From positions 203,982 to 267,981 of the forward strand of contig CALJAK010000007.1 in assembly GCA_938027595.1 (NCBI GenBank): DNA of 64,000 bases, given 5' to 3'. Each line of letters opens with the position of its first letter. Position 1 is the stretch's first letter. The DNA is from an uncultured Thermoproteales archaeon (GTDB lineage: Archaea; Thermoproteota; Thermoprotei; Thermoproteales; Thermoproteaceae). The notes beneath the pieces were generated by a model, which made no database searches, had not been told where the DNA came from, and saw only the letters and a program-made list of their open reading frames with translations. The translations under genes and the position numbers were made by a program. This document shows, in pieces, positions 35,953 through 64,000 of the stretch.

Positions 35953-37773
35953 ATGATAGCGTGTACTCGCGATTGTTACGACACTTGTATCTTCACGCCT
36001 GTGTATAGAGACGGCGAGTTGATTAGACTAAAACCTCTGGAGGGGCCCCCCACCTTTGGCTTTACTTGCGCCAGGGGGGCCGGAGACGTCAAGCGGTTGA
36101 AAGCCCCCAACCGAGTCAAGACTCCCCTACTCAGGGGAGAGAGGCAAGTGGTGGAGGTCAGTTGGGAGAGGGTTTTGAGAGAAGTGGCGGAGAGAATGGC
36201 GAGCGAGGAACCCCACAGAGTGCTTCACATAGATTACGACGGCAACCAGGGGCTGTTGACTTGGTACTACCCAGCTAGACTCTTCAACGCCATGGGAGCC
36301 GCCTCCACTGACTACTCCATATGCAGCTCCGAGGGGAGAGAAGCGATAAAACTACACTGGGGGCGGGCCTACGGCGCCATGCCGGAGGATTTCTCCAAGA
36401 GACCGGTGATCTTCTGGGCGATAGACGCCGCGGTGTCGTTCATCCACGGCTGGACGCTGGCGAAGAAGAGCGGCAATCGCTTGGCGGCGGTGGACGTCTG
36501 GATGAGCACCACCATGAAGAACGTAGACCTCCCCATATTGATCAAGCCAGCCACTGACGTGGTGCTGGCGCTTGGGGTGGCTAGGGAGATAATCCAGCGA
36601 TACAACGTAGAGGGGGGGCGGGGGTTTAGAGAGTTTGTAAAACACGTGGAGAGATACACACCCACATACGTCTCGCGGGAGACCGGCGTCTCCCCCAGCC
36701 AGCTGGAGGAATTGGTGGAGTTCTACCTCGCCAAGCCACTCTCTGTAATTGGGATGGCACTCAGCCGCATAGAAAACGGCGGAGATGCGGCGAGGGCAAT
36801 CTCACTACTCCACGCCCTCCTGGGAGACCCTGGGGGCTTCTTTTACTCAAATTCCGAAGCTTGGGGTATAGACTTCCGCTACTTGCGGGGGCTCCACATG
36901 GCGTCCCCCAGCCGAGTGGTGCCCATGGGGCTCGTGGGGTCCGCCATAGGGGACTTCCGCTTTGTTTACGTGTGGAACGCCAACCCCGTCTTGACGCTCC
37001 CGCAGGGTGACCGCATAGCGACAGCCGCCGCTAGGGGAGACATAACGCTAGTGGTACATACGCCGTTTATGGATGAGACTGCCCAAGCGGCGCACTTAGT
37101 GCTGCCGGCCCCCACCTACCTAGAGAAGGAGGACGTGGTGTATAGCTACTGGCACAATTACCTCATATACAACACCCCGGTGGCGAATCCACCCGCCGGC
37201 TCGAGGCCAGAGGTGTGGGTAGTGGCGAAACTCGCCGAAGTGTTGGGGTTAGATCACCCCCTCCTCAGGGAAGACCCCTGGGTGGCGGTGGAGGTGGCTT
37301 TGCGGAATACAGGCATTACGCTGAGCGAGTTGAAGGCGAGGCGCGTAGTGCCGCTGTCTAAACCCAACGTTGGGGTGGGGGAGGTGGAGTTCTACAGCAC
37401 CGCCGCTCTGGAGAGGGGACTCCCACCTTTGCCTCAGTACAAACCGCCGGCGGGGCGCTTCGTCCTCACGTTTCCCCCATCGCCTCTATACACTAACTCT
37501 CAATTTAGAGAAGTGTACGGCGAACCCCCACCCAAAGTGAAAATGAACCCAGCCGACTACGTATCTCGCTGTGTGGTTCTCTACAACGAGTTTGGGCAAG
37601 TGGAGGTAGAGGCCGAGGCAGACCCCGACGTCCCCCCCGGGGTGGTTATATACGTCGGCGTCGGTAGAGACAAGTTGGGGCGCCCCATAAACGCCATAGT
37701 CAGGGGAGACCCGGGGCTCTACGGCGGCACGCCCAAGTTGTACACTACATACGTAGAGGTAGCGCCATGTTGA
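35953..37773 (+). CDS. DMSO reductase-family molybdopterin oxidoreductase
   Basis: 606 residues. Four Cys at 4, 8, 12 and 39 (CTRDCYDTC, then FTCARG) fit the N-terminal [4Fe-4S] cluster. STDYSICSSEGREAI near 125 is where a Cys or Ser metal ligand would sit. WNANPVLTLPQGDRI and VHTPFMDETAQAAHLVLPAPTYLEKED are the molybdopterin-binding stretches, and the C-terminal domain ends with VYVGVGRDKLGRPIN-like text (YVGVGRDKLGRPINAIV). No Tat signal is visible, so it is probably cytoplasmic. Substrate is unknown. It partly overlaps the TatD gene start. Confidence 0.87.
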   Translation: MIACTRDCYDTCIFTPVYRDGELIRLKPLEGPPTFGFTCARGAGDVKRLKAPNRVKTPLLRGERQVVEVSWERVLREVAERMASEEPHRVLHIDYDGNQGLLTWYYPARLFNAMGAASTDYSICSSEGREAIKLHWGRAYGAMPEDFSKRPVIFWAIDAAVSFIHGWTLAKKSGNRLAAVDVWMSTTMKNVDLPILIKPATDVVLALGVAREIIQRYNVEGGRGFREFVKHVERYTPTYVSRETGVSPSQLEELVEFYLAKPLSVIGMALSRIENGGDAARAISLLHALLGDPGGFFYSNSEAWGIDFRYLRGLHMASPSRVVPMGLVGSAIGDFRFVYVWNANPVLTLPQGDRIATAAARGDITLVVHTPFMDETAQAAHLVLPAPTYLEKEDVVYSYWHNYLIYNTPVANPPAGSRPEVWVVAKLAEVLGLDHPLLREDPWVAVEVALRNTGITLSELKARRVVPLSKPNVGVGEVEFYSTAALERGLPPLPQYKPPAGRFVLTFPPSPLYTNSQFREVYGEPPPKVKMNPADYVSRCVVLYNEFGQVEVEAEADPDVPPGVVIYVGVGRDKLGRPINAIVRGDPGLYGGTPKLYTTYVEVAPC

Positions 37774-51011: not shown

Positions 51012-52475
51012 TTAGAGAACTATCGCTCTATACACTAAATCCATCAAACCGGAGTATTTGACGTCTCTGCCATATTCTTTATTCAAATGCGGCAGTGTGT
51101 GATTCAATTGCGCTTTACATATCGCACACGCTCTCACTACGTGACCCGCCCCCACTTTCAACGCGTCTTGATACCAATTCTTGGCGTATTGTATCCTCAA
51201 CGGCAGTAGTTCTTCTGTCAACAACCCGCCACCCCCACCGCAGCACCAACTCTTCTCCCGGTTGTTGGGACTATCTGCATACTTCTTCACCACGTGCCGT
51301 ATTATGAAACGCGGTTCTTCAGTGAGGTCGCCGCCGCGTGCGTAATTGCAAGAGTCTTGAAACGTGTAGACAACATCGCCGTTAGCCTCCGGCTTTAGTT
51401 TCAACTTGCCGTTCTTAATGGCGTCTTTCACTAAATGGAATATGTGCATTGTCTTTATGCCACGTTTCTCCAACTCGGGGCCCGTGTAGTTCTTAAACGC
51501 ACGCCAACCGTGGCCACACTCGCCGGCGATTACGTACTTAACGCCCAGCCTAGTGGCGGCGTTTACTAACATCTGGCCTATGTACTTCATGTGTCTCTCT
51601 GAGGCGAACAAGCCGAAGTTAGCTAACTCCGCCACTTCAGTAGAGAAGGCGTACTTAACCCCCATCAAATGGAGAAACAACATATAACCCTTCAACGTAT
51701 CTATGTTTGTAAAGAAGTCTGCAGAGGGAGGTACCAAAAGCGCTTCTGGCCACTCGCCGGATTCTCTAGTCACCTCGCCGATTTGTTTATCTCCCTTGTA
51801 TTTGTACATCTTACCCTGGTCACTGCGGTATATTAAGTACTCCACTTCCACTTTCTTCTCTTCTAGGATTTCGCTCGCCGCGAAAGTGATAGACTTAACC
51901 ACAGCCAGCGGCTTCATGCCGAGGTTAGTGCCAGTGCGCTCCATGGCGTCGATGACTGTAGCTATGTAACGAGAGAAAATGCCAGCTTCGTACATCACAT
52001 TTCTCACAGCTCTAGTCAAATCCGCTTGGTCAATGCCGAAGGGACAAGCGTAAGCGCACTTCCGGCACTCTAGACACTGGTAGTAGTAAGTGTATACCGT
52101 CTCCAACTGCTCCTCGTCCAGACGTTTGGCTCCCACCAAACCGCCCAGCAGCTTGCCGCTGAGACTCTCGGCTTTGAGCACAGACCTGACCAACTCGGCG
52201 CGGCCCACGGGGGAGTTGTAAATGTCTTTAGTAGACACGTACGTGGGGCAGTTGTCTAGACAAACGCCACAGTGTACACACACCTCCACAGCCATCTTGA
52301 CGTTTCTGTTCTTCTCCACCTCCTCCTTTAGTCTCTTCTTCACGTGGAGGAGTGGGTCTTTGGGGAGCTCCAGCCCCACTCGGGCGTGGAGTGTCTTTAT
52401 TGCATCTTCCTTCGCTTTGAAAGTTTTGAAATTGGAAGTGTCACCTAACTTAAATACAACCTCCCCATGACTCAT
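51012..52475 (-). CDS. dsrK: DsrK-like heterodisulfide reductase-type Fe-S protein
   Basis: 487 residues from the ATG at 52475. Two ferredoxin-type clusters are CVHCGVCLDNCP and CLECRKCAYACPFG. The CCG domain has SWCCGGGGGLL, CAICKAQLNH and GECGHGWRAF, as in DsrK/HdrD. DsrK passes electrons from the membrane quinol oxidase DsrM to the DsrC disulfide or sulfite reductase. DsrJ, O and P are absent here, as in other archaea that keep only DsrMK. A cytochrome b gene at 60.3 kb could be the membrane partner. The TATA-like TTATTAACC is upstream. Confidence 0.85.
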   Translation of the reverse strand: MSHGEVVFKLGDTSNFKTFKAKEDAIKTLHARVGLELPKDPLLHVKKRLKEEVEKNRNVKMAVEVCVHCGVCLDNCPTYVSTKDIYNSPVGRAELVRSVLKAESLSGKLLGGLVGAKRLDEEQLETVYTYYYQCLECRKCAYACPFGIDQADLTRAVRNVMYEAGIFSRYIATVIDAMERTGTNLGMKPLAVVKSITFAASEILEEKKVEVEYLIYRSDQGKMYKYKGDKQIGEVTRESGEWPEALLVPPSADFFTNIDTLKGYMLFLHLMGVKYAFSTEVAELANFGLFASERHMKYIGQMLVNAATRLGVKYVIAGECGHGWRAFKNYTGPELEKRGIKTMHIFHLVKDAIKNGKLKLKPEANGDVVYTFQDSCNYARGGDLTEEPRFIIRHVVKKYADSPNNREKSWCCGGGGGLLTEELLPLRIQYAKNWYQDALKVGAGHVVRACAICKAQLNHTLPHLNKEYGRDVKYSGLMDLVYRAIVL

Positions 52476-52556
52476 AGACAAGAATGACTCTAGGTTAATA
52501 AGGATTATTATAGTACATCAAGTAATATACATATATATACCAAACGCACCACACTC
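52476..52556. promoter_or_regulatory. divergent promoter of dsrK and the cbiA/dsrN-like gene
   Basis: The 81-base gap contains TTATTAACC about 25 bases from the dsrK ATG on the minus strand. On the plus strand acatatatatacc (52529-52541) lies about 22 bases before the amidase GTG. Common control of electron transfer and siroheme-modification genes is possible. Confidence 0.5.
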
Positions 52557-53897
52557 GTGGTACCCCGCTTGGTGATGTCTTCCTTCAAGGGCATGTCTGG
52601 AAAGACTTTGATAACTCTCGCCGTTCTCTACGGGTTGCAGAAGAGGGGGTTTAAGACAGCGCCGTTTAAAGCCGGCCCAGACTACATCGACCCCACTTAC
52701 CACAGAGCCGCCGCCGGCGTCCCCAGCCGCAATCTCGACGTGGTGTTGATGGGAGAAGACGGCGTGTTGAAGAGATTCGCCAAATACGCCAGAGGCGCAG
52801 ACGTCGCCATAGTGGAAGGCGTCTTGGGGCTCTACGACTCTGTGGACGGGGTTTCGGAATTGGGCTCTACGGCTCAGTTGGCTAAACTACTGAAAGCGCC
52901 GGTGGTTCTAGTGCTAAACGGCGAGCGGATAAACCGCACTATGAGGGCAATAGTGCGGGGCTTGCGGCACTTCGATAGTGAGGTACAAATACCGGCGGTG
53001 ATTTTGACAAACGTCACAGAGAGACAGAGAGAGAAGTTAGCCAAATCTCTACCTGAAGAGGGGGTGGAGGTAATTGGCGCCGTGCCACGCTCAAAAGCAG
53101 TGGAGGAAGCCTTCCGATATAGACACTTGGGGTTGGTGCCCACAGACGAGAGAGGGGACGTAGACACCGTGCTGAGGGTGGTGGAGAGCTACGTACTACC
53201 CCACATAGACATAGATCGATTGGTGGAGATTGCGAAAACCGCCGGCGAGTTGGACGTCTCCCCAGACGCCGAGGCGTCGGCCGGCGGCAGTTGTAGAGTA
53301 GGCATCGTGATGGACAACGCCTTCACATTCTACTACCCAGAGTTGATTGAGGAGGCCTCGCGAGTGGGGCAGCCGGTCTTCATAAGTGCGTTGAGAGACG
53401 GCAGTTTGCCTCAGCTAGACGCGTTGATAATCGGCGGGGGTTTCCCGGAGGTCTTCGCCGAGGGGTTAGAGAAGAACAAACCATTTAGAAAGTCCGTCTT
53501 TAACTACGTCGAGAGTGGGGGATTCCTCTACGCCGAGTGCGGTGGACTTATGTATCTGACGTCTACTATCGTGATTGACAGGTTTGAGTACCAAATGGTC
53601 GGCGCCATAGATGCAGTTACAGTCATGTTGAACAAGCCGGTGGGCAAGGGCTACGCGTGGGGCGTGGTGACGGGCGAGACGCCCATAGCCCCCAGGGGGG
53701 CCACAGTCAAGGGCCATGAATTTCACTACTCAAAGTTAATACTGCGGGAGGGGGTTCAGCTCTCCATAAAGCTAGATAGAGGTGTCGGCGTCGGTGGGGG
53801 GTGGGACGGCATTGTGAAGAAAAACATGCATGCGCAATATCTCCACATACATCCATACACATACAGCGTGTTGCGGCAGTTATGTCGATCTACGTAG
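52557..53897 (+). CDS. CbiA/DsrN-like cobyrinate or siroheme amidase
   Basis: 446 residues from a GTG. The N-terminal ATP domain has SSFKGMSGKTL and AGPDYIDPTYHRAAAG, and the C-terminal glutamine amidotransferase-like domain has AECGGLMYL (Cys nucleophile) and KGHEFHYSKL. CbiA amidates cobyrinic acid; the same family as DsrN amidates siroheme to siroamide for dissimilatory sulfite reductase. The latter is favoured by the neighbouring siroheme methyltransferase and dsr genes and by lack of other cobalamin genes. It overlaps the next gene by 16 bases. Confidence 0.87.
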   Translation: MVPRLVMSSFKGMSGKTLITLAVLYGLQKRGFKTAPFKAGPDYIDPTYHRAAAGVPSRNLDVVLMGEDGVLKRFAKYARGADVAIVEGVLGLYDSVDGVSELGSTAQLAKLLKAPVVLVLNGERINRTMRAIVRGLRHFDSEVQIPAVILTNVTERQREKLAKSLPEEGVEVIGAVPRSKAVEEAFRYRHLGLVPTDERGDVDTVLRVVESYVLPHIDIDRLVEIAKTAGELDVSPDAEASAGGSCRVGIVMDNAFTFYYPELIEEASRVGQPVFISALRDGSLPQLDALIIGGGFPEVFAEGLEKNKPFRKSVFNYVESGGFLYAECGGLMYLTSTIVIDRFEYQMVGAIDAVTVMLNKPVGKGYAWGVVTGETPIAPRGATVKGHEFHYSKLILREGVQLSIKLDRGVGVGGGWDGIVKKNMHAQYLHIHPYTYSVLRQLCRST

Positions 53898-54535
53898 TGG
53901 GCGCGGGGCCCGGAAACCCCAAGCTACTGACAGTGTGGGCGGTGGAGGTGTTGAGAGAGGTGGACGTGGTGGCACACGGCGATTTGGTGCCGGAGGAGGT
54001 GGTAGAGTTATACGCCCCAAACGCCAAGCGGGTGAAGATAGGCAGCAAGAGGAGCGAACACGACGCGGCGGTGGAGGCATTGATAGAGGAAGCCAAATCT
54101 GGAAAGAAAGTAGCAATATTGAAAAACGGCGACCCCACACTCTTCGGCCGGGGGATGCAGATCTGTAGAAAAGCCAAAGCGGCGGGAGTGCCGTGTTACA
54201 TAATTCCCGGCGTCTCTGCCTTCACCGCGGCGGCCGCTCTCCACGAGGTAGAGTTGACAAATGGCGTGGACCTCAGACACGTGGCGCTGTTGGCATATCC
54301 ACACGTAGACGCAGACACTGTGAAGTCCATCGCCGCAGACACGCTAGTGATATACATGATGGGCAGCCACTTTGCGCAATTGGGCGAAGTGTTGAGAGAC
54401 TGTGTAGAGATATACCTCTGCCACGCCGTGAGTATGGGCGGCGGCTGCATCCCCACAAAACCCAGCCAGCTTTGGGAGTACACAAACTTGAGGCCAGCCA
54501 TAGTTATCGCTAGGTGTGGGAAAAAAGAGGATTGA
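53882..54535 (+). CDS. cobA: uroporphyrinogen-III C-methyltransferase (siroheme pathway)
   Basis: 217 residues from the ATG at 53882. YVVGAGPGNPKLLTV is the SAM-binding start, ILKNGDPTLFGRG and IIPGVSAFTAAAA are typical of SUMT/CobA-type methylases. It makes precorrin-2, the precursor of siroheme (and cobalamin). The gene overlaps the amidase gene, linking siroheme production and amidation. A longer opening to 53801 lies inside the amidase and was not used. Related precorrin methylases share the fold, so exact position of methylation is inferred. Confidence 0.85.
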   Translation: MSIYVVGAGPGNPKLLTVWAVEVLREVDVVAHGDLVPEEVVELYAPNAKRVKIGSKRSEHDAAVEALIEEAKSGKKVAILKNGDPTLFGRGMQICRKAKAAGVPCYIIPGVSAFTAAAALHEVELTNGVDLRHVALLAYPHVDADTVKSIAADTLVIYMMGSHFAQLGEVLRDCVEIYLCHAVSMGGGCIPTKPSQLWEYTNLRPAIVIARCGKKED

Positions 54536-54540
54536 CGGAC

Positions 54541-54792
54541 TTAGCCAAGCCTGTGGGCTAAAGTCGGCGCCGCTGCGGCTAGTTTTAGATATGCCGAAGT
54601 CTTCACTACAAACACGTGTTGGACGCCGGCTTTTTCAGTAGATAGCACCACGCCCTTGGCGTTCTTTACGGCTTCCTCTACCTTCATCCCCCGGTACTTC
54701 TCGGGGAACGTCACTACGCCGGCTTTCGCCTTGAGGTACATAACTACGTCGCATAGGCATATCTTCTCCACAATCTGGTCGTACGTCAACAT
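54541..54792 (-). CDS. small protein of the sulfur island, unknown
   Basis: 83 residues. MLTYDQIVEKICLCDVVMYLKAK, VTFPEKYRGMKVEEAVKNAKG and an end rich in Ala give a mixed alpha/beta outline with a CLC pair near residue 12. ATG follows GTATTTTAAC by about 25 bases. It sits convergent to the methyltransferase and 44 bases beyond the end of the 115-residue gene. No family recognised. Confidence 0.55.
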   Translation of the reverse strand: MLTYDQIVEKICLCDVVMYLKAKAGVVTFPEKYRGMKVEEAVKNAKGVVLSTEKAGVQHVFVVKTSAYLKLAAAAPTLAHRLG

Positions 54793-54836
54793 AAGAAAAT
54801 GGTGATGTGAGTTAAAATACTTTGCGGGAAAAAGCG

Positions 54837-55184
54837 TTAGGTTGGGGGAGGTACGTACTCCTTCTCCTTCGCCGCCGCTTGTTTAATTTCGTCTATCTTT
54901 GCAAAAACTTTCTCGAAAGCCTCCCGGCCGACGCTGCCGGTGGACACCACTGCGTTGAACAACTCCCGCTTGAACGCCACCGGCAGATCCTCCAGAAAGC
55001 CGCGGGCGTCTACTCTAGCCGCTGGAAACTCCGCCAATATGCGGCGGGAGGTCTCTTCATCAACTTCTATTTCCAACACTCTAATATCGCCGCCGAACAT
55101 AGACTTAAGCGTCGTGGCGAAGGGGAGGTTTTTAATCGCCTCGTACCTCTTCTCGTCTATTAACAAACCAATTTTGTACGTCAT
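54837..55184 (-). CDS. unknown protein co-translated with ATP sulfurylase
   Basis: 115 residues, no Cys. MTYKIGLLIDEKRYEAI, IRVLEIEVDEETSRRIL and a helical C-terminal part make a small alpha/beta fold. Its ATG overlaps the sat stop (ATGA), which ties it to sulfate activation. It is not DsrC, since it lacks the conserved C-terminal Cys pair. Function not recognised. Confidence 0.65.
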   Translation of the reverse strand: MTYKIGLLIDEKRYEAIKNLPFATTLKSMFGGDIRVLEIEVDEETSRRILAEFPAARVDARGFLEDLPVAFKRELFNAVVSTGSVGREAFEKVFAKIDEIKQAAAKEKEYVPPPT

Positions 55185-56545
55185 AACTCCACCTCCAGCT
55201 CTTGTTCTTTAATTTTTAGGTATCTATCAGTGACGTAGGGGTATCCATACACTTTCCACCATTTGACAATCACGTCATACACCTCCGGCCGCATGACTAC
55301 CTTCGGCGGTCTGAGACCCTCTATAATTACCCCACGCAAAAACGACCCAGACACTCTCTCCGGCGGGTGGCCACAGAGAGGCGGCTCTTTATAATCGCCG
55401 TAAGCCATGCCGAGATATGTGTACTCGCCGCATTTTGGACAGTAGGCGAATTCGCCCAAGTTGACGGGCCGCACTTTGACTCCCTTGTCCACTTGATACG
55501 GCGGCGCTTCTATGCCGTAGCTGGGGAGTCCCCTAGTCCAGAGATACTGCGTGGCGTAGGGGTCGTAGTAATCGCCGGTAGCTGCGTGATCACGGCCGAA
55601 CATGTGGTGAGTCACGCCCAGATTCTGCCTAATCACTGCGTGGAAGAGACTCTCCAGCGGGTTGCCGTAGCGCATGTCCCACAGAGTCATAGTCACTACG
55701 TGCCTATTGGCGTGGAAGTAACCGGCTTTATTCAACGCCTCATGTCCCTCCAGAATAGCCTCGTCCACGTAGTCGCCGGGTCTCTTCGCGCCAATTATGG
55801 CGTTGACGAAAACCGCGTCCGCCGGCCTCTCCGCGCCAGCGACGAACATAGCCCGCTTCATGAGCATTTCGTGACCAATGTGTGGCACGTTGCGAGTTTG
55901 GTGAGCCACCACGATCTTCCATCCCCTGGACTTGATGTACTCCCGGCTGACGTGAGGCGGCATCCAGAACCGGGCGTACGGCTCTTTGAACTTGGGCGGG
56001 TTCACTAACGTCAATTTCCCAGCCAGAGCCATGGGCCGCATCATGCGATACATGAGCCAACCTGGGTGCTTCTCGTCAAACCGCTTCTTTACAACTTCTC
56101 CGTTCCTCTCCGGCGTGCCGAAGACCGCGTCCGCCAGTTCTTTCCTATCGCCAAGTTTGTAAATCTCTTCGATATTCATTACCGCAAGCGGTTTGCCCTT
56201 CAACGTGAGCAAAACACTGTCCCCCTCCTTGAGGCCGAGGCTTTTTACAGTTTCTTCATCTATGTCGTATATGAGTGGGAATGGGAATAACCAACCTCGA
56301 TACCTCCTCTCTCTTAAAATAGAATCAACGTCGTTTCGAGTCATAAAGCCCTCTATGGGACTCACAAATCCGTACGTAATCGTCATGATTTCTCTATAGG
56401 GATTCCTAATGGGGGCGCCGTCTGGTCCATAAGTCGGCTCAATCTCCACTTTAGTCAAACCAGCCGACATTGAAGCGGCTCTGTCTCTATCTTCAACTAC
56501 GTTGTAGACAAGTCTCCCACCGTGTGGCTCTAGTGGAGCGTACAT
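55181..56545 (-). CDS. sat: ATP sulfurylase (sulfate adenylyltransferase)
   Basis: 454 residues. The active-site motifs are HQTRNVPHIGHEML (QxRN...HxxH), GAKRPGDYV and MFGRDHAATGDYY. A zinc-like pair CPKCGEY and CGH appears near residue 375. It makes APS from sulfate and ATP in the dissimilatory pathway, or runs backward in sulfite oxidation. AAAATTTTAGAA lies about 25 bases upstream of the ATG. The 66-base gap before it also holds the end of the upstream operon. A gene of unknown role follows with ATGA overlap. Confidence 0.95.
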   Translation of the reverse strand: MYAPLEPHGGRLVYNVVEDRDRAASMSAGLTKVEIEPTYGPDGAPIRNPYREIMTITYGFVSPIEGFMTRNDVDSILRERRYRGWLFPFPLIYDIDEETVKSLGLKEGDSVLLTLKGKPLAVMNIEEIYKLGDRKELADAVFGTPERNGEVVKKRFDEKHPGWLMYRMMRPMALAGKLTLVNPPKFKEPYARFWMPPHVSREYIKSRGWKIVVAHQTRNVPHIGHEMLMKRAMFVAGAERPADAVFVNAIIGAKRPGDYVDEAILEGHEALNKAGYFHANRHVVTMTLWDMRYGNPLESLFHAVIRQNLGVTHHMFGRDHAATGDYYDPYATQYLWTRGLPSYGIEAPPYQVDKGVKVRPVNLGEFAYCPKCGEYTYLGMAYGDYKEPPLCGHPPERVSGSFLRGVIIEGLRPPKVVMRPEVYDVIVKWWKVYGYPYVTDRYLKIKEQELEVEL

Positions 56546-56611
56546 GGAGTATCGTTATTCTAAAATTTTCAACCTTATTGCCGCTAGATAGAAATACACT
56601 CTATATATACT

Positions 56612-56941
56612 CTATATGTGTACTTTCACAAATCCAGTTAACGCAAGCACAATAATTATCAAGATAATTACTGCCTTAACTAACATTATTGTTTCCCTCC
56701 GAGAGATAGACCACGAAATTACATACAACAATCCAAAGAGGGGCGCAATGGCGAATATGTAAACGCCTATCCGCGCCTGTGTGTGATCTTCTTTTATGGT
56801 ACCATTGAATATCCCCCTGACTTTCTCCGCGAAGTCTTCGGGATGGGCTAAAGCTTCTGCCACTGTGATCGCCGCTATAGTGAATATACCTATCAAAGCA
56901 ATCGTGAATACAATATCTGCATATCTGTGTTCTAAAGTCAT
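56612..56941 (-). CDS. small membrane protein beside the TauE/SafE transporter
   Basis: 109 residues with three hydrophobic segments: IVFTIALIGIFTIAAITVAEA, IYIFAIAPLFGLLYVIS-like text (VYIFAIAPLFGLLYVIS) and LVKAVIILIIIVLALTG. A short extramembrane loop EDFAEKVRGIFNGTIKEDH is between the first and second. The ATG overlaps the TauE/SafE stop (ATGA), and the pair ends the aprBA operon. It may assist sulfur anion transport. No family recognised. Confidence 0.6.
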   Translation of the reverse strand: MTLEHRYADIVFTIALIGIFTIAAITVAEALAHPEDFAEKVRGIFNGTIKEDHTQARIGVYIFAIAPLFGLLYVISWSISRRETIMLVKAVIILIIIVLALTGFVKVHI

Positions 56942-57813
56942 ATAACGCCGAGTTGTTGAAGTCCCCTAATTATTAGGTTTACGCTAGCGATAGCCATAAC
57001 TGTGAGCACTGCAGTTCTTATGACGTGAGTCTTTACTCTCAGAGCCAACTTAGAACCTATCGTCGCTCCAATTAGAGGACCCAACATCACTGGAGCCAAA
57101 AGAGTGGGGGCAACTACCCCCTCGTTTACGTATATCCAGAATCCGGGCATGTCGCCAACTACAAACGAAGCCACTGAAGATCCCACAGAAACTTTCAACG
57201 GGAGACCCATCACGATGTGTAAAGTCGGCACGATAGCCCAGCCGCCGCCCACGCCGAACATGCCAGCTATGAAACCCACGCCGAAGAAACACAAGAAGCC
57301 ATATCCCACATTTCTGGCGTGGTATTTCACTTCCTTCCCCAGAGCGGGGTCGTGAAATATGCCAAACAACCCCAATCGCCGCCCCCACTCGCTCCCGGAC
57401 GATTTAGCTATTTCCCCCTCTTTACGTCTAAATTTCCACATGACATATATTACAAACATGATTAACAAACCTAGGGCAATTCTCACAATCGCTTCACCCA
57501 CAACTCCAAACCACTTGACAATTCCCACTCCCAACACAGCTCCCACCGACGAGCCGACTGCGAGCGCTACACTGCCGAAAAGTACAATGTTGAGCTTAGT
57601 GGCACCCGCCTTGAGATAACGACGTCCGCCCACTACTGAATCAGTCATCGCCAAGGCGAGCCCGGCAGCCCTCACGAAATTTACGTCTAACCCAGTGAAC
57701 GCCAACATCAACGGCGTGAAGAGGACGCCGCCGCCAACTCCAGCCATGACAGCCACAGTAGCGATACCTACCGTGAGTAGGAATAGGAGGGGGAGGAAAA
57801 AAAGTTCGACCAT
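56938..57813 (-). CDS. TauE/SafE-family sulfite or sulfur-anion transporter
   Basis: 291 residues with about eight membrane segments. The repeated GVGGGVLFTPLMLAF and FGVGGGWAIVPTLHIVMG glycine-rich loops mark the TauE/SafE family. A large polar insertion (residues about 125-165) separates halves. Members move sulfite, sulfoacetate or other sulfur anions. It starts 1 base after the aprA stop, so uptake or efflux of the pathway's anions is likely. Direction is unknown. Confidence 0.85.
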   Translation of the reverse strand: MVELFFLPLLFLLTVGIATVAVMAGVGGGVLFTPLMLAFTGLDVNFVRAAGLALAMTDSVVGGRRYLKAGATKLNIVLFGSVALAVGSSVGAVLGVGIVKWFGVVGEAIVRIALGLLIMFVIYVMWKFRRKEGEIAKSSGSEWGRRLGLFGIFHDPALGKEVKYHARNVGYGFLCFFGVGFIAGMFGVGGGWAIVPTLHIVMGLPLKVSVGSSVASFVVGDMPGFWIYVNEGVVAPTLLAPVMLGPLIGATIGSKLALRVKTHVIRTAVLTVMAIASVNLIIRGLQQLGVI

Positions 57814-57814
57814 T

Positions 57815-59692
57815 TTACGGGAGTATGTGTATCAATGGCACAGTTCTTACAGACCACTGGCCAGTCTTGGGGTCCCGCCTGGCGTTGACGAAGACGTGCC
57901 AATTCGTTTCGTCTATATAGGGATAGTCGGCGTTGAAGTAGTACCCACGGCTCTCCTTCCTGTGTAGCATGGACACCGTCACGCCCTGCCCAACCAACAA
58001 GCGGTGGTAAACCTCCCAAACGCGCAGTAGCTCGTGGTAGCTGGCGGCCGCGGCGAAGCGGAAGTCCTCCTCCAACATCCTCAACAGCTCAACAGCTCTG
58101 TTCAACAAATACTCGTTAGTCACGTAGAACATCCCCCAGCCAGCTACGTACTCGTCCATAATCTTCTGCAGCCGCAGCAGCAGCTGGTGCCAGTTTAGGT
58201 AGTTGGGGTGAATCTCGTACCAATTAGTGTGAGGAGTCTCCGGCGTGGTTGTAAGCGGTTTGTTCATGTGGTACCACACTAACGGTCTGTACACAATTTC
58301 CTTATACCGCTCGATCGTGTCTGAACTCACTGTCGGTTTGTAATCCTTTGCTTGAGTCAAGACGTATCTCACGGCAGATTTACCAGCAATACGCCCCTCG
58401 GTGAAGCTGCCAGAGGAGAACTTGTGCCCACTGCCGCCGACTGTGTCGCCGGCGCCGAACAACCCCTCTACAGTCAACATGCGGTTGGGTCCCCACTTGT
58501 ACTCCGGCGGCGCGATGTCGGCAGGTCCCGAAGCCCACATGGCGCCGGGAGAGGCGTGACTGGCTTGTATGTAAGGCTCGGTGGGCAGCAGCTCCGACGG
58601 CGTTTTCTCTGGGTGGATATTGTTGGCGGCCCAGTAGAAAGCTTGAGTGGGAGTCATGTCCAAATAGTCCTCGAAGAGGACGTGGAGAGACTCGTGGTCC
58701 GGCAGACGCTCTTGTGTTTGCATAATGTCTGGACCGCGGCCCTGCTTGAGGTTAGTCACAGTAACCCAAGTCCTTATGGGCGTGGGGGTGGGTTTAGCCC
58801 AAGCATAATCAAAGAATATCTTCGACAACTCCGCCTTTGCCTCATCCGGCAGAGGCTCCCACTGTTTGCCCTTGACGTCTGTAGACCTCATCTTTAACAA
58901 CAGATAGGGGAACCCCACTGGTCCATATGCGTCTTTGAACCTCACCACAATGAGGCGGAACTCTAAGCTAGTGGCCTCCGCGCCGGCGAGTATCGGTATA
59001 GCCAACGCGCTGCCAGACGCCCAAGTGGGGTACCAAGTGCGGCCCATGCCCTCGCCCACGCTCCTGGGGCGGTACAACAGAGAAGTGCCACCGGCAGCCA
59101 CAATTACCGCCTTAGCTTTGAAGACGTAGAAAGTGCCGTCTCTCACGTGGAAACCCACCACGCCGGCGATTCTGTTGGGCACCCGTTCGTCCATAAGCGG
59201 GTGTGTGACAGCCACCCTCTCATACACCTCGTCTGCGGATTTGTAACAAGCCTCGGCAATTATGGCTTTGTAAGACTCGCCGTGTATGGGGTGTTGCCAA
59301 CGGCCGGTGCGCATGTACTTGCCAGTCTTGGGGTCGCGCCAAATGGGCAACCCCCACTCGTCGAATAGCTTGATGGTGGAGGTCATGTGTCTCGCAATGT
59401 CGTACACCAAGTCCTCTCTCACAATGCCAAGGAAGTCATTTCTGACGTAGTAGACGAAATCCTCCGGCTTGGGGTCGTCTGGGTCTGTGGTAAACACGCC
59501 GAGGTTACAAGCGGAGAGACCCATCCCCACAGCGCCGGATTTCTCTACCTTCGCCTTATCCACAAGCGTTACTTTGCACTTGCCACCGCACCAGTACTTA
59601 GCTTCAAACACAGCGCCGCAGCCAGCCATCCCACCGCCAACTACCAAAATGTCGGTTTCTACAATTTTAGTAGGTGGGTTAGGCAGCGACAT
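57815..59692 (-). CDS. aprA: adenylylsulfate reductase subunit alpha
   Basis: 625 residues from the ATG at 59692, directly preceded by GGGAGGTAAT, a Shine-Dalgarno that decides the start. The FAD domain shows VETDILVVGGGMAGCGAVFEA. SACNLGVFTTDPDDPKPEDFV, GRWQHPIHGESYK and FSSGSFTEGRIAGKSAVR match AprA. It reduces APS to AMP and sulfite with AprB, or works in reverse. Its length is typical. Operon order is aprB, aprA, TauE/SafE, small membrane protein. Confidence 0.95.
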   Translation of the reverse strand: MSLPNPPTKIVETDILVVGGGMAGCGAVFEAKYWCGGKCKVTLVDKAKVEKSGAVGMGLSACNLGVFTTDPDDPKPEDFVYYVRNDFLGIVREDLVYDIARHMTSTIKLFDEWGLPIWRDPKTGKYMRTGRWQHPIHGESYKAIIAEACYKSADEVYERVAVTHPLMDERVPNRIAGVVGFHVRDGTFYVFKAKAVIVAAGGTSLLYRPRSVGEGMGRTWYPTWASGSALAIPILAGAEATSLEFRLIVVRFKDAYGPVGFPYLLLKMRSTDVKGKQWEPLPDEAKAELSKIFFDYAWAKPTPTPIRTWVTVTNLKQGRGPDIMQTQERLPDHESLHVLFEDYLDMTPTQAFYWAANNIHPEKTPSELLPTEPYIQASHASPGAMWASGPADIAPPEYKWGPNRMLTVEGLFGAGDTVGGSGHKFSSGSFTEGRIAGKSAVRYVLTQAKDYKPTVSSDTIERYKEIVYRPLVWYHMNKPLTTTPETPHTNWYEIHPNYLNWHQLLLRLQKIMDEYVAGWGMFYVTNEYLLNRAVELLRMLEEDFRFAAAASYHELLRVWEVYHRLLVGQGVTVSMLHRKESRGYYFNADYPYIDETNWHVFVNARRDPKTGQWSVRTVPLIHILP

Positions 59693-59693
59693 A

Positions 59694-60182
59694 TTACCTC
59701 CCACCTCCCGCAGTTTGTTTTAGTGGAGAACCCACAATTCTAACCAACTGCTTAGGCCGCGGCAGCTCTGGGAAGCCGAGGTACTCCGGCTTGTCCTCTA
59801 GAGCCAACAACTCACTCTCTAGGTCCGTCCTTGGGGGTATGTCTTTCGCGGACCTAGCCGAGCCCCATGGGGTTGTCCTAATGGGAGAGGCGAAGTCGTG
59901 TACAGTGCCGTCGCGGAAGACAATACGCCAGTAGATCATGTTTTTCTTTGTGTCTCTAATGACGCCAACTCTTGCGCCGAGGGGAGCGAAGTCACTATAT
60001 GTCCTCACGTCCACTGCGTGTTCTGGACAGTACTTGACACAGTTTAGACACTCGGCACAGGAGACTGGGTCTGTGTTGTAGGCTCTCCTGACCTTCAGAT
60101 TGTAGTGCATATTGTCGGCGGGACATATGTCAACACATTTGCCACAGCCTTTACATAGAGACGAATACACAAACGTGGGCAT
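59694..60182 (-). CDS. aprB: adenylylsulfate reductase subunit beta
   Basis: 162 residues from the ATG at 60182, about 25 bases after AATATTTAAG; an ATG at 60194 is too near that box. Two [4Fe-4S] motifs are CKGCGKCVDICPADNM and CAECLNCVKYCPEHAVDV. AprB relays electrons to the FAD in AprA. The C-terminal tail (LPRPKQLVRIVGSPLKQ) clasps AprA in known structures. It is the first gene of the apr operon. Confidence 0.93.
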   Translation of the reverse strand: MPTFVYSSLCKGCGKCVDICPADNMHYNLKVRRAYNTDPVSCAECLNCVKYCPEHAVDVRTYSDFAPLGARVGVIRDTKKNMIYWRIVFRDGTVHDFASPIRTTPWGSARSAKDIPPRTDLESELLALEDKPEYLGFPELPRPKQLVRIVGSPLKQTAGGGR

Positions 60183-60264
60183 GCACCTTAACATGTGTAC
60201 TTAAATATTGTTTATTAACTTGCCATGGGAATAATCTTATTAAGACTTCTAATGGAGTTGTGCC

Positions 60265-61179
60265 ATGGCGGATTGTGTACCCACTGGCGTGGGGCATGTG
60301 TTAACTTGTAACACACCTCTCGGCACATATAATGCAGTACACAGCCCCGTCTCGTGGTTCGCGATAGATGTACTTGCAGTTGCTACAATTTTGTGGATAC
60401 TATTTACATTTTACTACAAGGGAGTTAGGCAATTCAATGTATTACGCTATCCACAAATACAGACATTGATTAAATATCAAGATTGGGAGAGGAGACTTAT
60501 AAAAGAGAAACAAGGCATAGGCGGAAAAGCCATACCACTCTTCTTTAAGGTGTTATTTTCAGACGTGTTAGCCATGAATATACTGAAGTGTGAACATGGC
60601 AAGTCATATGCCGAGGTTGTACACACTAGGACAAGCAAGAGGTGGGCGAAATTGTTGATGGTCTGGGGTTTTGTCTTTGCGGGGGCCTCTACCGCCTTGG
60701 CTTACTTCACGTTCCCGCACGACACCATAGTGCTGGACGTGACGCATCCAGCTCGCGTCTTGGGCATGATCAGCGGTGTTCTGTTGATAGTGGGTTCACT
60801 CATGTGGCTCAATGTGAGGAATAAAGAAGTGCAATACAAAGGCAGATGGGACCTCTTCGGCGCTGACTATCTACCTATAATTGTGTTACTGTTGGGAGTT
60901 TCGGGTTTTGCCCTCCAGGCGGCAATATGGGCGTGGGCATATTCGCCGAACGTCGTTACTGAGGCGTTTTTAGCATTTTCGACACACTTCCACGCAATTC
61001 CCATCGCTGCGTTTTTCTGGCTCTTCTTCTGGACTAAGGCAGATCACATAATCTATAGAATATTCTGGCGTATATACGAATATGCAGACAAAGACTTCGC
61101 CGGCCCCAACACCAGACTACCGCCCACAACGCTACACCCACTCAACAAGACCGGAAAAGAGATCCAACCAGGTTATTAA
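60265..61179 (+). CDS. cytochrome b-like membrane protein (NarI/DsrM/AprM type)
   Basis: 304 residues with about five or six membrane segments, starting near residue 30 (SWFAIDVLAVATILWILF). Histidines at VVHTRTSKRW, VTHPARVLG and STHFHAIPIAAFFWLFFW could bind haem b as in NarI. The N-terminus has two Cys. It lies between divergent aprB and dsrA and probably delivers quinol electrons to AprBA or, with DsrK, to sulfite reduction. Choice between DsrM, QmoC-like and AprM cannot be made by eye. GGAG is 8 bases upstream of the ATG. Confidence 0.7.
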   Translation: MADCVPTGVGHVLTCNTPLGTYNAVHSPVSWFAIDVLAVATILWILFTFYYKGVRQFNVLRYPQIQTLIKYQDWERRLIKEKQGIGGKAIPLFFKVLFSDVLAMNILKCEHGKSYAEVVHTRTSKRWAKLLMVWGFVFAGASTALAYFTFPHDTIVLDVTHPARVLGMISGVLLIVGSLMWLNVRNKEVQYKGRWDLFGADYLPIIVLLLGVSGFALQAAIWAWAYSPNVVTEAFLAFSTHFHAIPIAAFFWLFFWTKADHIIYRIFWRIYEYADKDFAGPNTRLPPTTLHPLNKTGKEIQPGY

Positions 61180-61319
61180 CTTCACAATTTTTTCACATAC
61201 ATATATACACCAATATATATATAAATACACTTATCAATTTTTAGACATAATAAAAAGACAATAATTATTACATTAAATCTGTTAATATCTTTTAAAAAAT
61301 GGAGAATGCATGAAATGTC
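61180..61319. promoter_or_regulatory. AT-rich region with dsrA promoter
   Basis: After the cytochrome b stop, caattttttcac could end transcription. The region is very AT-rich with repeats of atatat. tcttttaaaaaatgg (61290-61304) is about 25 bases before the dsrA ATG and is the probable TATA box. GGAG is 16-19 bases before the start. No other gene is visible. Confidence 0.55.
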
Positions 61320-62567
61320 ATGTCTGCACCAAAGAACTTACCGCCGCCAGAGGTGTTACTCAAACGTTCGGAAGAAATTCTAGCCGAGCTAGAGCGCGGC
61401 CCATGGCCGAGTCACGTCACTGAACTCAAGAAGACTAACTACGCCACTAGAGTATACGGCGTGGGATTAGCGGCTAGAAAATCGCCATGGGGCCCCGCAG
61501 CTGTCAAAGTAGAGTACGTAACCACCGGCGTGTTGTCCAGGTGGGCTAGAGATTGGGTGCCCGGCGGCGGCAGCGAGTTACACTTCAGAGTATTCCACAC
61601 ACCCGGCAAATTCCTCAAGACAGACTGGCTAAGGCAAGTGACGAAAATATCTAAAGAACTTGGAGTGGGGCTGATTGAGCTAGTGGGACAAACCGGCGCG
61701 TTAGTCCTCAACCTCACCCCAGAGAAGGCGGAAGAGATGGTTGACGCTCTGCGGTCCATCGGCACAGACGTCGGCGGCAGCGGCGACGCCATAAGAGCGC
61801 TAAACGCCTGCGTGGGGCCGGCATTGTGTGAATACGCGCTCTACGACACACTCAAGTGGTACGCCGAGTTTTACAAAGACAAGAGAGTAAACGACGCCAT
61901 AATTTCCCCGAGCTACCCATACAAATTCAAGATAAAAATGTCCGGCTGCCCCATGGATTGCGCCAGAGCCAACAGAGGCGACATAGGCTTCATTGGTGTT
62001 TGGGTTGGTGCTCCTGAGGTGGATTTGGAGTTGTTTAGGAAAAAAGTGGAATCCGGCGAGTTGGATCCGGAGAAGATTGTGGCTCGTTGTCCGAGTGGCG
62101 CCATCAGTTGGGACAAGGAGAAGAAAGAGTTGAAAATCGACGGGAGCCGCTGCAAGAAATCCATGGAATGCATCAGAACGGCATTCCCAGCAATAAAACC
62201 AGGTAGAGAAAGGAAAATAGCCGTAGTGGTAGGCGGACATGTCAAGGGTAGATTCGGCGGTAAGATGGGGAAGCCTCTGGCTGTGGTGAATTCGGTGGAT
62301 GAAGCTATGGATTGGGTTATCAAAACTATAGAGAGTTGGATGGAACACATGGAGAAGGGTGTGGTGAAACACAAAGACAGAATTGGGGATTTCATTACGA
62401 AGATAGGTTATAAGAACTACTTGAAAGACGTCGTGAACGTGCCGGAGGTTGGCAAACCAACGCTGCATACCTCTCTGAGAGCCGGCGCGGTGCTCGACGA
62501 AGAGGAGAGAGCCATGTGGAGCAAGTGGGTGTCTGAAATTGTGGAAGAGTACAAATCCCGGCTATGA
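61320..62567 (+). CDS. dsrA: dissimilatory sulfite reductase subunit alpha
   Basis: 415 residues. The sirohaem-[4Fe-4S] Cys pairs are ACVGPALCEY (C-x5-C) and GCPMDCARANRGD (C-x3-C). A ferredoxin-like domain near 255-300 has RCPSGAISWD and RCKKSMECIRTAFPAI. The usual CxxCxxC of DsrA reads CxxSxxC, so one cluster ligand is changed. It reduces sulfite with DsrB. It overlaps dsrB by 4 bases (ATGA). Confidence 0.95.
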   Translation: MSAPKNLPPPEVLLKRSEEILAELERGPWPSHVTELKKTNYATRVYGVGLAARKSPWGPAAVKVEYVTTGVLSRWARDWVPGGGSELHFRVFHTPGKFLKTDWLRQVTKISKELGVGLIELVGQTGALVLNLTPEKAEEMVDALRSIGTDVGGSGDAIRALNACVGPALCEYALYDTLKWYAEFYKDKRVNDAIISPSYPYKFKIKMSGCPMDCARANRGDIGFIGVWVGAPEVDLELFRKKVESGELDPEKIVARCPSGAISWDKEKKELKIDGSRCKKSMECIRTAFPAIKPGRERKIAVVVGGHVKGRFGGKMGKPLAVVNSVDEAMDWVIKTIESWMEHMEKGVVKHKDRIGDFITKIGYKNYLKDVVNVPEVGKPTLHTSLRAGAVLDEEERAMWSKWVSEIVEEYKSRL

Positions 62568-63667
62568 GCGAGGCCGAGAGGCTAAAGAAAAAACTGCCGG
62601 TGCCCTACACGGATTGGCTGCCGGAGGTTGTCAAGCGTAATTTAGGCAAGTGGGTTGACCGGAAGTACCACGGCTATGGCGTTATTGAACACATTTCTGA
62701 AACTGGCGACAGGATATTCACAGTGAAAGTGGGCACCCCGCCCAATTTCAGAGTCAGTACTGACACTCTGAGGAAATTTATAGACGTAGCCGATAGACTT
62801 GGCGTTGGGGGCATAAAGATGACGAGAAATGGCAATTTGGAGATTTTGACTGATTCTCTTGACAAGGCGTTGAAGATTAAGGAAGAGGTGGAGAGAATGG
62901 GCTTCCCGGTGGGCGGCTGGGGTCCCACACTTTGGTCGATAAATTCCTGTACTGCTTACCTCACGTGCACCACCGCCGTGTTGGACGCCCCCTCTATAAC
63001 TAAAGTGTTGTATGACTATTTGAAGCCTTATTTTACTGGCGAAATTACGCTGCCGGCTAAACTCAGGATAAACGTCTCTGGCTGCCCTAGTGCATGTGGC
63101 GGGTTCACCACTGACATAAACTTAGTGGGGCACTATGGAGATGCCCCCACTTACGACCCAGATAAGATAAAGCTGTGTCTGCCTAAGTCTGCCAAAGCCA
63201 TAGAAGCGGGGCACGTCCCGGAGGTAGCGGAGGTGTGTCCCACTAGAGCTATAAGAGTGTACGGCAAGCCGGACGGCTCTGTGGGTTTGGACATAATCCG
63301 CGAGAAGTGTATCGCATGTGGTAGGTGTAGAGATGTGTGTGACTGGATTGATTTCGACGAGTCTAAAGCCGGCGTAGCTGTGTTGGTGGGGGGTAAGGCT
63401 AGCAACACCGGCAGGGGACCCATGCCGTCTTACCAAGTCATCCCCTGGGTGCCAGCCATCCCGCCGGATTATGTGGAGATTGTGGCTGTGGTGAAGAAAA
63501 TTATTGACGTGTGGCGGACTAACGCCAGTGAGGGGGAGAGAATTGGCGATTGGATCGGCAGAGTTGGCATGAAGAAATTCTACCAATTGATGAAAATTCC
63601 GGAGGGCAAGTGGAACAGAGCTGTGGAAAGCCAGGGAGAGTTTGGAGTTAGACAATTCCGAATTTAG
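62564..63667 (+). CDS. dsrB: dissimilatory sulfite reductase subunit beta
   Basis: 367 residues. Cys pairs SCTAYLTC (C-x5-C) and SGCPSACGG (C-x3-C) form the sirohaem-cluster site, and KCIACGRCRDVCDW with CPTRAI forms a complete [4Fe-4S] ferredoxin domain near 240-275. It completes the alpha2beta2 sulfite reductase with DsrA. T-rich gcttttgttttc follows the stop and may end transcription. The next gene is a regulator on the same strand. Confidence 0.95.
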   Translation: MSEAERLKKKLPVPYTDWLPEVVKRNLGKWVDRKYHGYGVIEHISETGDRIFTVKVGTPPNFRVSTDTLRKFIDVADRLGVGGIKMTRNGNLEILTDSLDKALKIKEEVERMGFPVGGWGPTLWSINSCTAYLTCTTAVLDAPSITKVLYDYLKPYFTGEITLPAKLRINVSGCPSACGGFTTDINLVGHYGDAPTYDPDKIKLCLPKSAKAIEAGHVPEVAEVCPTRAIRVYGKPDGSVGLDIIREKCIACGRCRDVCDWIDFDESKAGVAVLVGGKASNTGRGPMPSYQVIPWVPAIPPDYVEIVAVVKKIIDVWRTNASEGERIGDWIGRVGMKKFYQLMKIPEGKWNRAVESQGEFGVRQFRI

Positions 63668-63787
63668 ACCGCTTTTGTTTTCAATGTTGTAGACTTAAAT
63701 CAAAAATATACGTATGTTCAGCGCGTTTTTATATTCGGTAAACAGATGATGTCTGAAAGACATAAATATCTATTTTTGGATGTGTAC

Positions 63788-64000
63788 ATGTTGTATTGTC
63801 CACAACCTGAGCTTGAAGATAATGCCCGTTTAATTCTCTGTTTTGTCTCTGTCCACGGCCCCGTAACTATGTACAGAGTCGCTAGGGAACTCTCTCTCCA
63901 TTTTTCATATGCCTATAGGAAAGCGAGTATGTTGGAGCACATGGGGCTTTTGAAGAAAGTGTCTGAGTCCCGCGCCAATCTGTACGACTCCACCATGCGG
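63788..64000 (+). CDS. partial winged-helix regulator next to dsrAB
   Basis: 71 residues are visible before the window ends. ILCFVSVHGPVTMYRVARELS, then HFSYAYRKASMLEHMGLLKKV, is a winged helix-turn-helix. The ATG at 63788 is about 22 bases after cataaatatc; in-frame ATGs at 63746 and 63749 are alternative starts with a less good TATA distance. It may control the dsr operon. The C-terminal part is not available. Confidence 0.65.
   Translation, partial: MLYCPQPELEDNARLILCFVSVHGPVTMYRVARELSLHFSYAYRKASMLEHMGLLKKVSESRANLYDSTMR

Follow-up and report, generated by a model that had tools for sequence, protein, structure and literature searches.

The right-hand part of the analysed DNA probably combines a Pyrobaculum-type sulfite-respiration locus with a separate, quinone-linked AprBA branch that has its own QmoC/NarI-like membrane partner instead of QmoABC. 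This DNA, hereafter the window, is a stretch of 64,000 nucleotides (C7:203982-267981) from genome G000 (1.24 Mb in 24 contigs, 96.5% complete). The model is built on gene content, linkage, co-occurrence, residue changes and purifying selection, all of which were observed directly; from these we infer physical contact between AprB and the partner, quinone binding by the partner and the direction of the second branch.

Gene content of the locus

Open frames for dsrK, an amidase, a methyltransferase, sat, a TauE permease, aprA, aprB, the QmoC-like protein, dsrA and dsrB lie within positions 51012-63667 (Table 1). In family profile scans, all genes named in a preliminary description of the locus matched their families, and the compact island that it outlined was confirmed, with its units divergent as described. 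AprA, AprB, Sat, CobB/DsrN and DsrB scored above the curated cut-offs, and DsrA, DsrK and the methyltransferase below theirs.

Two small genes had been overlooked, one for a DUF6955 protein beside sat and one for a 109-aa membrane protein beside the TauE gene. The former directly adjoins sat in every relative locus in which both flanks were read, including that of G002, which has sat without aprBA; its predicted structure (pLDDT 87) gave no PDB match at E<=0.001 in Foldseek. No family above cut-off was found for the 109-aa frame in curated-family and Pfam scans, and no Pfam match for the 232-aa HTH-like protein at the window edge. Elsewhere in the window, a 606-aa formate-dehydrogenase-alpha-like molybdoprotein is encoded at 35953-37773 beside amino-acid ABC transporter genes. 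Genomes >90% complete from elsewhere in the genus measure 1.6-2.5 Mb, and the small size of G000 suggests either a reduced genome or a collapsed assembly.

Table 1. Features of the sulfur locus, in window coordinates.
Feature	Position	Strand	Evidence
dsrK	51012..52481	-	NF045796 E 9.6e-94, 314.5 bits (cut-off 400); CCG and Fer4 domains
cobB/cbiA-type amidase, dsrN candidate	52557..53897	+	TIGR00379 413.9 bits (cut-off 261.4)
SUMT/tetrapyrrole methyltransferase, siroheme branch	53885..54535	+	PF00590 E 2.8e-42; TIGR01469 122 bits, below cut-off
DUF6955, sat-linked small protein	54837..55184	-	PF22271 E 1.2e-28
sat, ATP sulfurylase	55181..56545	-	NF003166 456 bits (cut-off 387)
109-aa membrane ORF adjoining TauE	56612..56941	-	weak homologue beside TauE in G010
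TauE/SafE permease	56938..57813	-	PF01925 E 1.5e-33
aprA	57815..59704	-	TIGR02061 711.5 bits (cut-off 641.75); active-site motifs retained
aprB	59694..60194	-	TIGR02060 145.8 bits (cut-off 135.65); no Qmo-type loop
Ala codon in place of the electron-transfer Trp of AprB (Trp-B48, A. fulgidus numbering)	60054..60056	-	
QmoC/NarI-like membrane protein (cytB), proposed APS-reductase partner	60265..61179	+	
Lys129 codon at a haem-ligand His position of the partner	60649..60651	+	
His243 codon, retained TM5 histidine of the partner	60991..60993	+	
His261 codon, second retained TM5 histidine of the partner	61045..61047	+	
dsrA1, hybrid (N part b-type, C part c-type)	61320..62567	+	388.2 bits (cut-off 392.85)
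Ferredoxin-domain block homogenised with the second dsrA	61974..62213	+	nt identity 94% between the two copies and 44-56% in the flanks
dsrB1 (c-type)	62564..63667	+	TIGR02066 349.6 bits (cut-off 341.5); tree
Start of 232-aa HTH-like protein, continuing beyond the window	63746..64000	+	weak HTH match

Distribution of the membrane protein

The partner protein was detected at E<=1e-8 in 34 of the 398 genomes of the phylum (27 strong and seven weak matches), and aprB is present in 30 of the 398. The weak matches comprise G029 and G030 (group g8) and five genomes outside the order, all five without aprB. In 27 of 27 genomes with a strong match, the partner gene directly adjoins aprB at a distance of 6 to 122 bp by match coordinates, the two being divergent in family f1 (12 genomes) and co-directional in family f2 (15 genomes). 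The remaining three genomes with aprB (G029, G030 and G032, all of group g8) have HdrA-like/Qmo-like genes, and in G032 these accompany a gene for a 297-aa QmoC-like protein beside and following aprA. No HdrA-like match was obtained in 16 of the 27 strong-partner genomes among the best candidates scored (up to 14 per genome).

Within family f1 (19 genomes), the partner and aprA above its cut-off are jointly present in 12 genomes and jointly absent from seven. The distribution of dsrA disagrees with theirs in six genomes: G002, G003 and G009 have dsrA and neither aprA nor the partner, and G012, G014 and G015 have aprA and the partner without dsrA. An RpoB tree was built from 18 family members, leaving out G017, for which no RpoB was obtained; on it, the genomes lacking both genes fall at two to four places, the number varying with branches of weak support. 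Since the species are related, the co-occurrence counts are not independent. In G006, aprA and aprB are broken and the partner is intact, and the partner gene is broken in the draft genome G014.

In genus g4, a 103-aa HdrC-like 4Fe-4S protein (L109:8337-8645, and likewise in L117 and L124) precedes a four-histidine partner and aprBA, and the two proteins would together resemble a split QmoC. One member of this genus, G019, gave no HdrA-like match among its best candidates (up to 14), i.e. no QmoAB.

Fold and haem ligands of the partner

The partner has no Pfam match, including none to PF02665. In profile comparisons (hhalign), it matched the QmoC-like protein of G032 (94%, E 1.1e-7) and DsrM (70%, E 4e-5), and its match to the curated QmoC family covers the membrane part only (40 bits, compared with a cut-off of 300), with no HdrC part. 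Against PDB chains, the profile reached E 0.06-0.17 to NarI, in addition to chance matches. The predicted structure (pLDDT 77) gave no Foldseek match at E<=0.001; in VIA-align it resembled Mycobacterium smegmatis EtfD (Z 10.4, rmsd 4.9, 227 aligned residues) and NarI (Z 9.9, rmsd 6.1, 183 aligned), scores that lie above the next match (Z 7.4), yet in a range where helical bundles can match by chance. Neither a QmoC nor a DsrM structure was among the VIA-align matches listed.

The alignment with QmoC-like proteins places position 129 on a QmoC histidine that would be a haem ligand, judging from the fold. This position is Lys in 11 of 11 sequences of family f1 and His in nine of nine of its sister family f2, and all 11 f1 sequences also lack three further histidines that the nine f2 sequences have. 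His243 and His261, which are 18 residues apart in TM5, are invariant in all 20 partner sequences. With its haem-ligand histidines partly lost, the partner may not function as an electron-carrying dihaem cytochrome.

The partner shares with QmoABC its position beside aprBA and a QmoC-like membrane domain; it differs in that its locus lacks QmoA and QmoB, the HdrC domain is missing and a presumed haem-ligand histidine of TM2 is replaced by lysine. With DsrM and NarI it has in common the TM5 histidine pair and possibly a NarI-like quinone-interacting fold, but it lacks the TM2 histidines and tracks aprBA rather than dsrK. AprM, described from lineage-I sulfur oxidisers in the available text of PMC2211403, is likewise a Qmo-independent membrane protein encoded with aprBA, the comparison being one of descriptions.

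Residues of and selection on the APS reductase

In AprB, Trp-B48 is situated between FeS cluster I and FAD. Among 19 aligned AprB sequences, this residue is Ala in eight of nine from genera g1 and g3 (Pyrobaculum/Thermoproteus), Ser in the ninth (G005) and Trp in the 10 others. A longer loop of the type found in sulfate-reducing bacteria is present in the two g8 sequences aligned (G029 and G032) and missing from the other 17. As far as the accessible text of Meyer and Kuever (PMC2211403) goes, this insertion was proposed as a docking loop for Qmo; the AprB of the window thus differs from Qmo-linked AprB in lacking it.

The same source read the loss of the Trp, together with a missing Asn in AprA, as loss of function. 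That Asn is present in all 19 AprA sequences that we aligned. The dN/dS of AprA between G000 and seven relatives is about 0.06-0.09 (an eighth pair had undefined dS), and values for AprA and AprB are near 0.1 or below, all of them rough owing to high dS. AprBA is under purifying selection, and a plain relic was rejected on this ground. The presence of the Asn and the low dN/dS of AprA indicate that the enzyme most likely still works, by an altered electron path.

Dsr genes beyond the window edge

The 8 kb that follow the window encode DsrM (C7:269407-270156, ~1.4 kb beyond its end), DsrC (C7:270212-270547, ~2.2 kb beyond), a DsrE-like protein, a second dsrB-dsrA pair in inverse orientation that begins ~3.5 kb beyond the end, and several small ORFs without a Pfam match. 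A 167-aa ORF without a Pfam match, at L002:2413-2916, is found near sat or aprBA in most of the Pyrobaculum/Thermoproteus loci read. DsrC (PF04358, E 2e-34) ends in C-x10-C-V and has the two C-terminal cysteines. DsrM is the only PF02665 protein of G000 and is distinct from the product of 60265-61179; of its haem histidines, H82, H92 and H225 are invariant in 15 of 15 sequences and H207 in 14, the remaining one reading X. DsrA1 contains CVGPALC and SGCPMDC, and DsrB1 a matching pair, which we take to be the siroheme/4Fe-4S motifs of the two subunits.

DsrC, DsrJOP and Qmo had been reported as unseen, which is true of the window; in the case of DsrC, this is an edge effect, because the window ends ~2.2 kb short of the gene. 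The earlier suggestion that partners lie elsewhere, with a genome-wide search for dsrC, dsrM and qmoABC as the proposed check, is borne out for DsrC and DsrM and fails for Qmo. No HdrA-like match for QmoA or QmoB was found in G000 at E<=1e-20 among the best candidates (up to 14 per genome) scored in this search, and Qmo elsewhere in the genome was rejected as an explanation. No DsrP was found in G000; DsrOP at another site was likewise rejected, since the sole NrfD gene lies on C11 in a tetrathionate-reductase-like operon with TtrB-like and TtrA-like genes. A complete Qmo plus DsrMKJOP set, named at the outset as evidence against a minimal electron route, was therefore not recovered from G000.

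With neither QmoAB nor DsrP found, the core corresponds to DsrABCMKN, the sulfite-reducing set known from archaea, which the accessible part of PMC10504309 gives as that of archaeal sulfite reducers without Qmo. The earlier label of an archaeal minimal Dsr set was accordingly correct and refers to a set already known. DsrAB, DsrC, DsrM, DsrK and a DsrN candidate are shared with that set, as is the lack of a detected DsrOP; the present locus differs in additionally having Sat-AprBA together with a membrane partner of its own, a hybrid DsrA1 and a second dsrAB whose dsrA is broken.

Gene conversion between dsrA copies

According to the consulted portion of PMC3512248, most Pyrobaculum and Thermoproteus have three dsrAB copies per genome. 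In our trees, the DsrB of the window is of type c and its DsrA of type b, and the second copy is reversed. This conflict arises because DsrA1 and DsrA2 are mirror-image hybrids: by windowed identity, DsrA1 follows type b as far as residue ~218 and type c beyond residue ~298, DsrA2 shows the opposite arrangement, and a common block of ~80 codons, including the ferredoxin cluster motif, lies between. In the six Pyrobaculum/Thermoproteus genomes in which b and c copies were compared, the block is 88 to 100% identical between them at the DNA level. At third positions, the two copies agree at 72 to 100%, compared with 44 to 65% between orthologues. Identity falls to 44 to 61% in the flanks; the exception is G006, in which it continues to the end. 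The block is weaker (70%) in G011, a member of a third genus. The ferredoxin domain of DsrA is thus homogenised by gene conversion between two divergent dsrAB copies in all six genomes, a concerted evolution confined to one domain.

In G000, the exchange between the copies is reciprocal and the longest exact repeat is 135 nt; the hybrid DsrA1 reflects either a mis-joined assembly or a true inversion at inverted repeats. The second dsrA (L002:6604-8467) lacks the usual start region, abuts a methylase-like ORF and has a frameshift near L002:7702, so that the pair in the window is the intact one; the second gene is either a pseudogene or an assembly error. At the middle Cys of the CxxCxxC motif in the DsrA ferredoxin domain, b and c types all have Ser and genus g6 has Ala, and g4, g7 and some a types have Cys.

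Two electron routes and their alternatives

In the known branch, electrons would pass from menaquinol through DsrM and DsrK to the DsrC trisulfide and DsrAB, and the amidase and methyltransferase would supply siroheme amide. In the other, Sat and AprBA would interconvert sulfate, APS and sulfite, with AprB exchanging electrons with the quinone pool via the 60265-61179 protein, which would replace QmoABC. The preliminary description had offered, as one of two alternatives, that one cytochrome b, with DsrK, serves both APS and sulfite reduction. In favour of the membrane protein working for DsrAB, or for both routes, is the position of its gene, co-directional with dsrA and 140 bp upstream. We consider this highly improbable: two different NarI/QmoC-like proteins exist, of which DsrM is one, and that of the window adjoins aprB in 27 of 27 genomes, occurs even where dsrAB is lacking and is missing where dsrAB occurs without aprBA. 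A shared cytochrome b was rejected on this distribution. A module in decay, in which a Pyrobaculum APS reductase deprived of the Trp and haem histidines is being lost and adjacency is mere inertia, would account for the Trp to Ala and His to Lys changes, the broken aprBA of G006 and the loss of function proposed in the part of PMC2211403 consulted. It is nevertheless very unlikely in view of the dN/dS of AprA and AprB, the invariance of the replacement Lys (11 of 11), the frames open in most genomes and the AprA Asn retained in all sequences aligned.

The direction of the AprBA branch bears on the term sulfate respiration in the preliminary description, a label that is not supported here. Ordinary sulfate respiration, with Sat-AprBA-Dsr working reductively and the membrane protein passing menaquinol electrons to APS, is an unlikely though credible alternative, as every catalytic enzyme is present and the text available from PMC3189178 mentions growth of Thermoproteus tenax on sulfate as unpublished data. 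Against it, sulfate reduction or growth has been cited as shown for Ca. V., Pyrobaculum is cited in the portion of PMC7174415 seen as a reducer of sulfite and not sulfate, and for comparable archaea that lack Qmo, the accessible parts of PMC10504309 and PMC8539903 report reduction of sulfite but not of sulfate. The single-contig genomes G012 and G015 lack dsrAB and yet retain sat, aprBA and the partner, a pattern more in line with sulfite oxidation or a reversible function; we consider that the AprBA branch more likely works in one of these ways than in sulfate respiration. A broader reading for the Thermoproteaceae joins these elements: a protein of QmoC fold, its haem ligated by His and Lys or its haems fewer in number, would link APS reductase to the quinone pool for sulfite oxidation with ATP formed via Sat, DsrAB would extend this to sulfite disproportionation, and conversion would keep both DsrA ferredoxin domains alike because both sulfite reductases must dock one electron donor. 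As a whole, this reading is decidedly unlikely.

Implications

The Dsr core is already known, and as far as our literature searches showed, the apr-linked partner with its fixed His to Lys change and the homogenised DsrA block are previously undescribed variants. These searches, which covered Chernyh et al. 2020 through citing papers and sections of the text of PMC10504309, turned up no description of the partner or of gene conversion in dsrA; the supplements of PMC10504309 may already include the f2 homologue among type II QmoC proteins. The electron donor of this crenarchaeal APS reductase group was stated to be unknown in the accessible text of PMC2211403, and a single, perfectly linked gene offers a direct test of its redox partner. 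Archaea that have sat-aprBA and yet have not been found to grow on sulfate are likewise a puzzle. Within one order, a QmoC-like protein without QmoAB contrasts with Qmo, and AprB lacking the loop with AprB carrying it; this natural comparison suggests the surface at which each partner docks. That conversion in DsrA is restricted to a domain suggests that the duplicated sulfite reductases share a donor, and it is also a warning that dsrA trees of Pyrobaculum mix histories.
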